In this document: positions 33,848 to 38,673 of the stretch, piece by piece
Layout: each line of letters begins with the position of its first letter
Position numbering within the stretch: position 1 is the first letter of the stretch
Assembly (NCBI GenBank): GCA_002694745.1
Contig: NZMY01000002.1
Coordinates: forward strand, 186,001-250,000
Reading direction: 5' to 3'
From: Croceicoccus sp.
Lineage (GTDB): Bacteria; Pseudomonadota; Alphaproteobacteria; Sphingomonadales; Sphingomonadaceae
DNA length: 64,000 nucleotides
Made by a program: the position numbers and the translations under genes
The notes under the pieces: generated by a model
The model's database searches: none
Told to the model about the DNA's origin: nothing
What the model saw: only the letters and a program-made list of their open reading frames with translations

Positions 33848-35850
33848 GCCGCGGCCTCCGCAACGGTTTCGCCGTGCCACAACTCGGACGAGCAGCGCTG
33901 CATCGTCGGGCTGGCGCGCAGGATCGGGTTGGTGAGATAGGGGTCGGCGATCGGATAATTCTCGATCACGCCCGAAGCATCACCGCCGCCCGCCGGAACC
34001 GACACGCGCAGATCGGCAAGCCCTTCGTGCGCCAGCGCAGGCGTATCCGCGAACATCGCCGCGCGAAGCTGGTCGAAGCCGTCGAAGCCGACCGAAACGC
34101 CCAGCGCATCCGCCAGCGCGCGCAGTATCGTCCAGTCCTCGCGAGCGTCACCCGGGGCAAACACAGCCTTCTCGGACCGTTGTACGCGTCCCTCAATATT
34201 GACGTAAGTGCCAGCCTTCTCGGTATAGGCGGCCGCGGGCAGGATAATGTCGGCGGCATGCGCGCCCTTGTCGCCGTGATGGCCGATATAGACCTTCAGG
34301 GCATCGCCGAACGGCGCATAATCCATCTCGTCCGCGCCCAGCGACAGCAGGACCTTGGGCTTTGCCGCCGCGATGTCCGCCATGCCGCCCTTCTGCGCAA
34401 GGCCGAGCAGCAACCCACCCATGCGCGAGGGCGAGAAATGCAACGCGTTGAAGCCGTTCCAGCCGTCCTTGACGACGTTGAACTCGGCCGCCAGCGCCAG
34501 CGCCTTGCCCAGCGCGCCGCGGCCTAGCGCCGCACCGCCGACGATGATCGCAGGCCGCTCGGCCCCCTTCATCGCGTCGACGACATCGCTGCCCAGCGCG
34601 TTCAGCACAGACAGATCATTGCCAAGGAACGTCGCCGCATAGGTCGTGTCGTATTCGGGACCGACGTGGAAGATCTTCGCGCCGCCCTTGGCCGCCTTGC
34701 GCAGGCGCACATTGAGCAGCGGCGCCTCGTGCCGGATCTGGCTGCCGATCACCAGCACGGCATCGGAATTCTCGATCTCTGCCAGAGTGGTGTTAAAATT
34801 CACCGCCGCGAGGTTCGAGGTGTCGTACACCAGACCGGTCTGGCGCCCCTCGATCAGGGTGGAGCCGCAGGCCTTCAGCAGCGCCTTGGCCGCGAACATC
34901 GTCTCGCAATCGACCAGATCGCCGTAGACGGCGGCGAGGCTACCGCCCGGCTTGGCGGCCTTGATCTTTTTGAACGCCTCGTCCCAGCTCGCCTGTTCCA
35001 GCTTGCCCGCCTTGCGGATCCAGACCTTGTCCAGACGGCGGCGGGTCAGGCCATCGACCGCATAGCGCGACTTGTCGGCGATCCATTCCTCGTTGACGTC
35101 ATCGTTGATGCGCGGCTGGATGCGCAGCACCTCGCGCCCGCGGCTGTCGATGCGGATATTCGCGCCGACCGCATCCATCACGTCGATGCCAAGCGTCTTC
35201 TTCAGCTCCCACGGACGCGCTTCATACGCATAGGGGCGGCTGGTGAGAGCACCCACCGGGCACAGATCGATCACATTGGCCGAAAGCTCGTGCTTGGCGG
35301 CCTTTTCCAGATAGGTCGTGATCTGCATGTTCTCGCCGCGATACAGCGCGCCGATCTCGTCCACGCCTGCGATTTCCTCGCTGAAACGGACGCAGCGGGT
35401 GCAGTGGATGCAGCGGGTCATGATCGTCTTGATCAGCGGGCCCATGTATTTCTCGGTCACCGCGCGCTTGTTCTCGTGATAGCGCGTGGCACCGCGGCCA
35501 TAGGCCATCGCCTGGTCCTGCAGGTCGCATTCGCCGCCCTGGTCGCAGATCGGGCAATCGAGCGGGTGGTTGATGAGGAGGAACTCCATCACCCCTTCGC
35601 GCGCCTTCTTGACCATTTCGCTGTCGGTGCGGATTTCCTGACCATCGGTCGCGGGCAGCGCGCAGCTTGCCTGCGGCTTGGGCGGGCCGGGCTTCACCTC
35701 GACAAGGCACATGCGGCAATTGCCGGCGATCGACAGCCGCTCGTGATAGCAGAAACGCGGGATTTCCTTGCCCGCAAGCTCGCACGCCTGCAGCACGGTC
35801 GCGCCCTGCGGGACCTCGATTTCCTGTCCGTCTACGGTAACCTTGGGCAT
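33844..35850 (-). CDS. nuoG: NADH-quinone oxidoreductase subunit G
   Basis: Large peripheral-arm iron-sulfur subunit. The 668 residues begin with a [2Fe-2S] ferredoxin domain ([15 protein letters not shown]). The His-Cys [4Fe-4S] region [19 protein letters not shown] follows, then HCTRCVRF and CPVGALTS, before a molybdopterin-oxidoreductase-like domain that no longer binds cofactor in this family. Length fits the alphaproteobacterial form. The ATG overlaps the nuoF stop by one base and the end overlaps nuoH by four. Confidence 0.97.
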
Positions 35851-37139
35851 TATTCGGCGGCCTCTGCCATGTTTCCTGCTGCCGCGATGCGGCGCTCAAG
35901 CTCGGGGCGGAAGTGTTTGATCAGGCCCTGGATCGGCCATGCGGCCGCGTCGCCAAGCGCGCAGATCGTGTGGCCTTCCACCTGCTTCGTCACCTGGAAC
36001 AGCATGTCGATCTCCTCGACCGCCGCCTCGCCGGTGCGCAGCCGTTCCATCACGCGCCACATCCAGCCGGTGCCTTCGCGGCAGGGCGTGCACTGGCCGC
36101 AGCTTTCATGCTTGTAGAAATAGCTGATGCGGCTGATCGCCTTCACGATGTCGGTGGACTTGTCCATGACGATCACTGCCGCCGTGCCAAGGCCCGAACC
36201 CACGGCCTTCAGCCCGTCGAAATCCATCGGCGCGTCCCAGATCTCGGCCGCGGGCACCAGCGGCACCGACGAACCGCCGGGGATCACCGCCAGCAGATTG
36301 TCCTTGCCGCCGCGAATGCCGCCGCAATGCCGCTCGATCATCTCGCCGAACGGGATCGACATCGCTTCCTCTACCACGCAGGGCTTGTTCACGTGCCCGC
36401 TGATCTGGAACAGCTTGGTGCCCTTGTTGTTCTCTCGCCCGAAGCTTGAGAACCACGCCGCGCCGCGCCGCATGATGGTGGGCGCGACCGCGATCGATTC
36501 GACGTTGTTCACGGTGGTCGGGCAGCCATACAGGCCCGCGCCCGCCGGGAACGGCGGCTTGAGCCGGGGCTGGCCCTTCTTGCCCTCAAGGCTTTCGATC
36601 ATCGCGGTTTCTTCGCCGCAGATATAGGCGCCAGCGCCGCGGTGGACGAAGACGTCGAAATCATAGCCCGAACCGGCGGCGTTCTTGCCGACCAGCCCGG
36701 CGTCATACGCCTCCTGCACGGCGGCGAACAGCACCTCGGCCTCGCGGATATATTCGCCGCGAATGTAGATATAGGCGGCGCGCGCGCGCATCGCGAAACC
36801 GGCGACCAGCGCGCCCTCGATCAGCTTGTGCGGATCGTGGCGGATGATCTCGCGGTCCTTGCACGAGCCCGGTTCGGATTCGTCGGCATTGATGACCAGA
36901 AAGCTGGGACGGCCGTCCGGGCTTTCCTTGGGCATGAACGACCATTTCAGGCCGGTGGGAAAACCCGCCCCGCCGCGTCCGCGCAGTCCAGAGGCCTTGA
37001 TCTCCTCAATGATCGCGTCCTGCCCCTTGGCGAGGATGTCCTTGGTGTTGTCCCAATCTCCGCGCTTTTGCGCAGCGGACAGGTTCCACGGCTGATAGCC
37101 ATAGACGTTCGTGAAGATGCGGTCTTTATCAGCCAGCAT
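35850..37139 (-). CDS. nuoF: NADH-quinone oxidoreductase subunit F
   Basis: NADH- and FMN-binding subunit with [4Fe-4S] cluster N3. The 429 residues include the NADH/FMN loop [30 protein letters not shown] and the cluster motif [12 protein letters not shown] with the later Cys in [11 protein letters not shown]. It starts three bases after the stop of a 46-residue membrane ORF that is not part of standard complex I. Confidence 0.98.
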
Positions 37140-37142
37140 CGG

Positions 37143-37283
37143 TCAAACTCCGAATCCGAATACGAAAATAGCGGCGGCGATCAGGATCGCGACCAGCGCG
37201 ACCGTCTTGACGACGCCCTTGAGGACTTTCCACGCGATAATCAGCCCAAGCAGGGCGACCGCGATGGGGATCAACCCTTCCAT
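37143..37283 (-). CDS. 46-residue membrane peptide between nuoE and nuoF
   Basis: An ORF of 46 codons beginning MEGLIPIAVALLGL and ending FVFGFGV, almost wholly hydrophobic, with two short helices split by KVLKGVVK. Its ATG shares one base with the stop of the preceding 55-residue ORF (TGATG), and nuoF starts three bases after its stop, so translation is probably coupled through it. The longer track ORF in the same frame (105 residues from 37460) is a shadow extension across the 55-residue ORF. Family unknown; it could be a small accessory subunit or assembly peptide of complex I. Confidence 0.65.
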   Translation of the reverse strand: MEGLIPIAVALLGLIIAWKVLKGVVKTVALVAILIAAAIFVFGFGV

Positions 37284-37450
37284 CACTCGCCATCCTGCTT
37301 CCCGCTTTTGCCGGACAGGACGATAAAAACCACGCCTAATGCAAGGAAGGTCGCGCCCATCGCAGTGTTTTGCGTGGCGAAGAAGATCGCTGCCGCGAAC
37401 AGGAAGCCCGCGCCCGCGAACCGGTAATTGCGTTGTTGCAGCGAGGCCAT
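37283..37450 (-). CDS. 55-residue membrane protein between nuoE and nuoF
   Basis: Too short for the ORF track. Reading the minus strand from ATG 37450 gives 55 residues starting MASLQQRNYRFAGAG, with two hydrophobic stretches and the polar tail SGKSGKQDGE. The start shares one base with the nuoE stop (TGATG) and its own stop shares one base with the next ORF. Two TGATG junctions in a row argue strongly for real translation. I do not recognise the family. Confidence 0.65.
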   Translation of the reverse strand: MASLQQRNYRFAGAGFLFAAAIFFATQNTAMGATFLALGVVFIVLSGKSGKQDGE

Positions 37451-38118
37451 CACCATTCACCCCGATAATCGTGGTTCTCGCCCACCATGGCGGTCAGCGT
37501 GGTCGGTCCGCCCACCGGCTCGACCGTGTGACGATCGGGATCCTGCGTGCCTTCCTTCGGCGTCTCGCCGCGGGCCAGCGCGTCGAGCACCGCATCGAAA
37601 CGCTCACCCGTCAGATCCTCGTAATTGCCGTCGTTGATCTGGACCATCGGCGCGCTGGCGCAATTGCCCATACATTCCACCTCGGTCAGGGTCCACAGGC
37701 CGTCGTCGGTGGTATGGCCCTTGGCCATGCCGCGCGCCTTGCAGCGTTCCATGATCTCGTCGCTGCCGCGCAGCCAGCACGGCGTGGTGCCGCAGACCTG
37801 CACGTGGAATTTCCCCACAGGGACAAGGTTGTACATGGTGTAGAAGGTCGCGACCTCAACCACGCGGATCACCGGCATGTCGAGATAGGCGGCGACATAT
37901 TCCATCACCGGGATCGGCAGCCAGCCCTGCGTGCCAGTATCCTCGCCCACCTGCCGCTGCGCGAAATCGAGCAGCGCCATCACGGCGGATTTCTGCCGGC
38001 CCTCGGGATAGCGGGCGATCGCGGCCTTTGCCTTTGCGTCCCATTCGGGCTTGAACGCAAAGCCGCCCCAGCGGGCGCGCAGTTCGGGCGTATCGGGTTC
38101 GATGTAACGGTCGGCCAT
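37450..38118 (-). CDS. nuoE: NADH-quinone oxidoreductase subunit E
   Basis: Thioredoxin-fold [2Fe-2S] (N1a) subunit that pairs with NuoF. The ATG at 38118 gives 222 residues. The cluster cysteines lie in QVCGTTPCWLRG and VECMGNCASAP. The N-terminal helical region contains YPEGRQKSAVMALLDFAQRQ. The C-terminal 35 residues are extra and polar. Both ends are coupled by TGATG to neighbours that are not standard nuo genes. Confidence 0.97.
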   Translation of the reverse strand: MADRYIEPDTPELRARWGGFAFKPEWDAKAKAAIARYPEGRQKSAVMALLDFAQRQVGEDTGTQGWLPIPVMEYVAAYLDMPVIRVVEVATFYTMYNLVPVGKFHVQVCGTTPCWLRGSDEIMERCKARGMAKGHTTDDGLWTLTEVECMGNCASAPMVQINDGNYEDLTGERFDAVLDALARGETPKEGTQDPDRHTVEPVGGPTTLTAMVGENHDYRGEW

Positions 38119-38450
38119 CAGCGGATGAACTCCACCCGAGAGCATTTGTCGCCCTCGAAACTATAGACTGCGAGCACGTCGAACGGCTCGGCATCGGCGC
38201 TGCGCCATACGCGCTCGTGCAAAGTGACAATGTCGCCGAACTGCTTCGCGTCGATTATCTCGGCGCGGTTCTGCGGGAACTCGGCGAACATCGCCTTGAG
38301 CCCGGCGCGGGTGCCTTCGCGGCCTTCGCGTACCACGGCGCCGCGATAGGCCGCCTCGCATGCGTCTTCGGTCATCAGCGCGACATAGGCGTCCGCATCC
38401 TGCGCATTGTAATGCGCGATCATCTGCTTTGCAGTATCCAACCTGGTCAT
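38118..38450 (-). CDS. NTF2/SnoaL-like protein inside the nuo operon
   Basis: A 110-residue protein from ATG 38450, starting MTRLDTAKQMIAHYNAQDADAY, a typical SnoaL/NTF2-like opening (helix, then the N-A-x-D pattern), and continuing with GREGTRAGLKAMFAEFP and FDVLAVYSFEGDKCSRVEFI. Proteins of this fold are small pocketed barrels that act as isomerases, hydrolases or plain binding proteins; no specific role can be assigned. The stop overlaps the nuoE start by one base. The longer track ORF runs back across the preceding 70-residue gene and is not used. Confidence 0.8.
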   Translation of the reverse strand: MTRLDTAKQMIAHYNAQDADAYVALMTEDACEAAYRGAVVREGREGTRAGLKAMFAEFPQNRAEIIDAKQFGDIVTLHERVWRSADAEPFDVLAVYSFEGDKCSRVEFIR

Positions 38451-38460
38451 AGTCCCGGTC

Positions 38461-38673
38461 TCAGCCACGCGGACCTCCGCGGCGGCGCTTCCAGTTGCGA
38501 TATTGCGATTGGCCGAACGAGAAGAACTCGAACGCCGCGACGCAGGCGGCCATTTCGGCCAGCCATTCGTTCGTTTCAAAGCCCAGCGCCAGCGAGCCGA
38601 AGAACAGGACGATCAGGGCAAGACCCGTCGCCGATGCCAGCACGCTCATCTGTTCGGAATGCGTCAGCCTCAC
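38461..38673 (-). CDS. 70-residue membrane protein between nuoD and nuoE
   Basis: Starting at a GTG that overlaps the nuoD stop (GTGA) gives 70 residues; an ATG eight codons on (38649, MSVLASATG) is the alternative. It has one clear hydrophobic stretch (about residues 10-32), a second weaker one with aromatic residues ([11 protein letters not shown]), and a strongly basic end ([10 protein letters not shown]). Ten bases separate it from the SnoaL-like gene. Family unknown. Confidence 0.65.

Follow-up and report, generated by a model that had tools for sequence, protein, structure and literature searches.

ORF A, a 46-codon gene lying between nuoE and nuoF in the complex I operon of a Croceicoccus species, represents a real, clade-specific family of small membrane proteins at this junction that is outside the libraries searched and whose link to complex I we infer. 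It is a genuine coding gene under constraint and changes faster than nuoE does. In the genomes searched, sequence comparisons place A exclusively at the nuoE-nuoF junction and exclusively in Sphingomonadaceae, where it is conserved yet dispensable. Its neighbor, ORF B, is also coding, with weaker constraint than A, and by its sequence is probably a lineage-specific two-helix peptide, drawn from replaceable families, that fills a variable slot beside A. The best explanation we can offer is that complex I uses A as an accessory or assembly peptide without depending on it, a reading to which we give somewhat less than an even chance.

Two short ORFs connect nuoE to nuoF

The window, by which we mean the whole 64,000-nucleotide stretch of DNA that was analyzed, carries the nuo operon on its minus strand, where it extends between nuoA (41789) and nuoN (26250). 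The features around the nuoE-nuoF junction are given below in the order in which they are transcribed.

38461..38673, minus strand: ORF with hydrophobic stretches, about 70 aa; its GTG start overlaps the nuoD stop by 4 nt
38118..38450, minus strand: SnoaL-like (NTF2-type) ORF, 110 aa; its stop overlaps the nuoE start by 1 nt
37450..38118, minus strand: nuoE, the upstream partner; ATG at 38118; its stop overlaps the B start by 1 nt
37283..37450, minus strand: ORF B, 55 aa, MASLQQRNYRFAGAGFLFAAAIFFATQNTAMGATFLALGVVFIVLSGKSGKQDGE; predicted two-helix hairpin; alternative in-frame start at 37456
37143..37283, minus strand: ORF A, 46 aa, MEGLIPIAVALLGLIIAWKVLKGVVKTVALVAILIAAAIFVFGFGV; predicted to form one long helix; residues A17, W18, K19, G23, and K26 nearly invariant
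35850..37139, minus strand: nuoF, the downstream partner; starts 3 nt past the A stop

The initial annotation had described nuoE and ORFs of 55 and 46 codons as joined by successive TGATG overlaps, with nuoF starting three bases on and with both products largely hydrophobic. The coordinates bear this out exactly. The stop codon of nuoE (TGA, 37452-37450) is followed by ORF B, which runs from an ATG at 37450 to a TGA at 37283, and then by ORF A, from an ATG at 37283 to a TGA at 37143, all on the minus strand. The nuoE/B and B/A joints are both 1-nt TGATG stop/start overlaps, a 3-base spacer (CCG) separates the A stop from the nuoF ATG at 37139, and the products of both A and B are hydrophobic. 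When the spacer was shuffled 20,000 times with its dinucleotides preserved, 145 shuffles contained a complete chain of overlapping ORFs, each >=40 codons long, and two hydrophobic chained ORFs appeared in 0 of the 20,000. The two other small ORFs of the window, at 38461-38673 and 38118-38450 (SnoaL-like), both lie between nuoD and nuoE, upstream of A and B, and each has relatives at the nuoD-nuoE junction in other members of the Sphingomonadaceae.

Both ORFs are under purifying selection

The closest relative found, a Croceicoccus MAG (L002) whose nuoE is 96% identical, has kept A and B with the same overlaps. Compared with this relative, A has accumulated 7 synonymous and 3 non-synonymous changes (dN/dS 0.14), and B has accumulated 21.5 synonymous and 13.5 non-synonymous changes over 42 and 129 sites, respectively, from which counts we derived a dN/dS of about 0.13. 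Over a wider sample of 21 independent pairs, the dN/dS of A was 0.36 versus 0.14 for nuoE in the same pairs. Among the changes in A, 298 of 550 were non-synonymous versus about 404 under neutrality (P about 4e-22), by a binomial test that ignores mutation bias and with pairs restricted to a synonymous divergence of <=0.42. The B-type ORFs gave a dN/dS of 0.52 in 9 pairs (P about 1e-6), a value obtained from a pool that mixes several families.

ORF A is restricted to one junction in one family

The distribution of A was determined by a six-frame search of 301 genomes of the order with a profile of 33 sequences, in 4 of which the start region is slightly off the genomic letters; a later profile (A2), used for structure prediction, omits these four rows. 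At E<1e-3, the search returned 93 matches in 92 of the 239 genomes from the window's own family and none in the 62 genomes from other families of Sphingomonadales. Across 192 genomes of the class, nothing was found at E<1e-3 except the window's own copy. A match could be checked against its surroundings wherever the genome had a listed nuoF coordinate, and all 62 of these checkable matches lie upstream of nuoF on the same strand, 2-379 bases away. Another 20 loci were retrieved using the coordinates of their A match, and in these A is flanked by nuoE and nuoF. We also considered A as a mobile or dispersed gene and rejected this possibility, as no other locus was found at E<1e-3 in the 301 genomes. 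In two family genomes that lack a nuoF match, no significant match to A was detected; this comparison with genomes lacking complex I is a small sample and rests on one genus, and linkage alone is no proof of interaction.

The relatives that could be named belong to Croceicoccus, Novosphingobium, Erythrobacter-type genera, Sphingomonas, Sphingopyxis, and Sphingorhabdus, and because of these genera we take the sampled family to be Sphingomonadaceae in the broad sense. In a tree built from NuoE and NuoF with 179 family rows, A-type ORFs are found on both deep sides. The presence label for A changes 27 times on this tree versus 61 times for shuffled labels, and at least 11 changes of state are forced by well-supported branches. 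The simplest reading of these sequence relationships is that A would have been gained early in Sphingomonadaceae and inherited vertically, with repeated loss, often in Novosphingobium. For the groups A2 and C, found in Sphingomonas and related genera, homology to A is only suggestive, because the iterated profiles, though they joined these groups, took in each other's members. In the nuoE-nuoF gaps of L209, L210, L213, L215, and L227, two different A-like helical ORFs stand in tandem, suggesting that A was duplicated and diverged in one lineage.

Predicted structure and comparison with known small subunits

With 40 aligned relatives, AlphaFold2 predicted A to be one helix spanning residues 4-42 (pLDDT 91), and with 11 relatives it predicted B to be two helices at residues 2-25 and 29-51 (pLDDT 72). 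The near-invariant residues of A form the motif AWKxxxGxxK. A helix of 39 residues exceeds the thickness of a bilayer, so that in this model A would either lie partly outside the membrane or be bent near the K/G segment. A conserved helix face was sought in A, and the conservation moment was not significant (P about 0.29).

Neither A nor B gave a match above the cut-off in Pfam or NCBIfam, the A profile gave no significant match against PDB sequences, and a search of the available literature found no paper on these ORFs. The nuo clusters of Paracoccus and Rhodobacter contain extra ORFs of unassigned function among the complex I genes, and A and B resemble these in being extra ORFs among the complex I genes of alphaproteobacteria. 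In Paracoccus denitrificans, complex I carries NDUFS4, NDUFS6, NDUFA12, and PIMT as extras (PMC11522691). Like the candidates A and B, these extras take alphaproteobacterial complex I beyond 14 subunits, but by published descriptions they are not tiny membrane helices, whereas A and B are predicted to be small helical proteins; neither A nor B matched such accessory subunits in Pfam or NCBIfam, nor did A in the PDB. As would be asked of an accessory subunit, A is encoded with complex I genes and restricted to them (62 of 62 matches), and the B families mostly are as well.

Cyanobacterial NDH-1, for which structures have been published (PMC6992706), offers a likeness in form. NdhP and NdhQ are single-helix peptides of <5 kDa in NDH-1L, and NdhP is required for the stability of that complex (PMC4131877). 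A shares their small size and single predicted membrane helix, which B with its two helices does not, and A is likewise a single-helix tiny peptide tied to a complex I-type enzyme, in its case by gene order only. NdhP, however, has been shown to be part of the complex, which needs it, whereas A comes from another lineage and is absent from many relatives, and homology to NdhP or NdhQ was not detected for A in any PDB chain, Pfam, or NCBIfam match. A second likeness is to CydX, CydY, and CydZ, small helix proteins of cytochrome bd operons that differ between lineages (PMC4325964). These and A and B are small helix proteins in the operon of a respiratory enzyme, clade-specific and often unannotated, but the Cyd proteins belong to another enzyme and are encoded after cydB, with CydX shown to act in the oxidase, whereas A and B lie between core genes. 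By analogy, NdhP (PMC4131877) and CydX (PMC4325964) may be regarded as precedents for tiny helper peptides in respiratory enzymes.

The junctions around nuoE and nuoF accumulate small genes

We compared 179 distinct nuoE-nuoF junctions from the family. An A-type ORF is present in 96 of them (76 when the strict class is applied) and a B-type ORF in 47; 47 lack any ORF. The 157 junctions that were fetched independently of A gave 75 with A-type ORFs, 41 with B-type ORFs, and 47 (about 30%) without an ORF. An occupied slot holds 1-4 ORFs whose order varies (A, B-A, A-B, B-A-B, and so on), and a 1- or 4-nt overlap with the previous stop was seen for 92 of 102 A-type starts and 53 of 57 B-type starts. 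At least four groups can be distinguished among the B-type ORFs, several families being merged in the pooled B set, and strong matches to the B3, B1, and B2 profiles are mostly at the nuoE-nuoF junction. One B1-type two-helix peptide gene (L306; genome G109, C1:2520247-2520390) was found outside the nuo operon, the remaining strong B1 matches lying at nuoE-nuoF. Other contents of the nuoE-nuoF gap include repeat-like short frames (such as RHPEL..GS and VIPAKAGTQ) in L068, L073, L074, L155, and L202, often open with stop/start overlaps, and a 288-aa methyltransferase-like gene (FkbM-like by eye) between nuoE and A in the 1045-nt gap of L028.

The spacing of the nuo genes was summarized by junction medians, into which some duplicate loci entered and which shift with the placement of the query start. 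In the family, these were 281 nt for nuoD-nuoE, 146 nt for nuoE-nuoF, and 47 nt for nuoF-nuoG, with 2, -4, and -4 nt for nuoB-nuoC, nuoC-nuoD, and nuoG-nuoH. The corresponding medians for nuoD-nuoE, nuoE-nuoF, and nuoF-nuoG were -37, -1, and 20 in other families of the order and -25, -1, and 14 in the class, and nuoE and nuoF mostly abut in the sampled genomes of the class. The nuoD-nuoE junction of the family contains a SnoaL-like protein and a hydrophobic family of 66-74 aa, both present in the window, the nuoF-nuoG junction of relatives contains proteins of about 220 aa whose N termini resemble signal peptides, and repeat-like frames occur as well. From these medians and contents, accretion is centered on the joints of nuoE and nuoF and extends beyond membrane peptides alone.

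In L014, L030, L032, L044, and L061, for example, nuoF and nuoG are separated by genes for proteins of about 200-270 aa that begin like signal peptides and show a two-part pattern that is repeated; they are at times found as two in tandem and are absent from the window. We also looked for compensation between junctions, in the sense of a small membrane ORF at nuoD-nuoE when nuoE-nuoF has none, and found no association (Fisher P = 1). In 24 of 163 operons, neither junction has a small membrane ORF.

Possible role in complex I

On the reading that A is an accessory or assembly peptide that complex I can do without, ribosomes ending nuoE would restart on B, then on A, and then on nuoF, and A would be made together with the electron-input (N) module. 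The A and B peptides would enter the membrane, where A would bind complex I or an assembly intermediate and either stabilize the enzyme or help to join it; B has a weaker claim than A to an accessory role. The exclusive linkage of A and the peptide-level selection on it favor such a role in complex I, and its repeated loss and the unrelated genes in neighboring joints favor a permissive site. Because 24 of 163 operons do without a small membrane ORF at either joint, complex I works without them, and because A is naturally absent from many relatives that carry nuo, it is not universally needed. A can thus be no more than an optional helper of complex I. The products of nuoE and nuoF belong to the peripheral arm, away from the membrane, so the position of the gene is no pointer to a binding site.

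The initial annotation had proposed A and B as possible new accessory or assembly peptides of complex I, distinct from its 14 core subunits, and had named conservation of the reading frames in relatives, with dN/dS, as a check. Neither ORF matches a Pfam or NCBIfam model of a core subunit, NuoA-N, and both frames are conserved under purifying selection, so that lack of conservation no longer counts against the proposal. The proposal itself stands in part: the ORFs are coding, non-core, and clade-specific, and A is bound to nuoE-nuoF, but a general role is not borne out, with about 30% of junctions free of ORFs, A lost repeatedly, B swapped, and neighboring junctions holding SnoaL-like, secreted, and repeat-like genes. 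A broader version, in which the junctions flanking nuoE and nuoF would form a slot for lineage-specific membrane peptides of complex I, with an ancestral A and interchangeable B hairpins delivered with the N module by overlapping translation and a composition that varies between close species, strikes us as rather unlikely.

A serious competitor, plausible although well short of even, is that the joints around nuoE and nuoF simply tolerate small genes of other functions, which settle there because they are expressed and impose little cost, A and B then being real membrane proteins with no action on complex I. Such tolerance would fit the SnoaL-like, approximately 220-aa secreted, and methyltransferase-like genes and the repeat-like frames in the expanded nuoD-nuoE, nuoE-nuoF, and nuoF-nuoG junctions, along with the repeated loss of A, the one B1 copy outside nuo, and the absence of compensation between junctions. 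A merely tolerated gene, however, would be expected in other operons as well, and the search of 301 genomes (E<1e-3) placed A nowhere else, A having been inherited with its junction through the depth of the family. It is also conceivable, although improbable, that the ORFs act as a relay that passes ribosomes from nuoE to nuoF and sets the amount of NuoF, with the peptides themselves mattering little. Chains of 1- or 4-nt stop/start overlaps do occur in nearly all ORFs of any family, even in non-membrane frames, but the selection on the A peptide (dN/dS 0.36) and its near-invariant AWKxxxGxxK speak against a relay, and in about 30% of the family, as in other genomes, a direct nuoE-nuoF overlap serves equally well. 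That A and B are chance open frames without coding function is scarcely credible: G+C-rich DNA often throws up short ORFs at random, and the nuoE-nuoF gap of some relatives contains repeat-like frames with plainly no homology, but the shuffled spacers never gave two hydrophobic chained ORFs, selection acts on both frames, and the conservation of A across Sphingomonadaceae refutes this reading for A.

Bacterial complex I is usually seen as a fixed minimum of 14 subunits. If A does act in complex I as an accessory or assembly peptide, the bacterial enzyme would also gain and lose tiny accessory parts, and close relatives with and without A would offer a natural comparison for the role of such parts. 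Even if the peptides act outside complex I, the joints of nuoD-E-F-G present a core respiratory operon that accretes small genes at particular joints.

Peptides like A and B are readily overlooked by gene callers. In the window, a GTG-start frame of 105 aa (37143-37460, minus strand) extends the frame of A upstream through B. We rejected it as a true gene, since in L002, the closest relative, the added upstream part has no open frame; as it covers both B and A, a gene caller could choose it over the two real ORFs.
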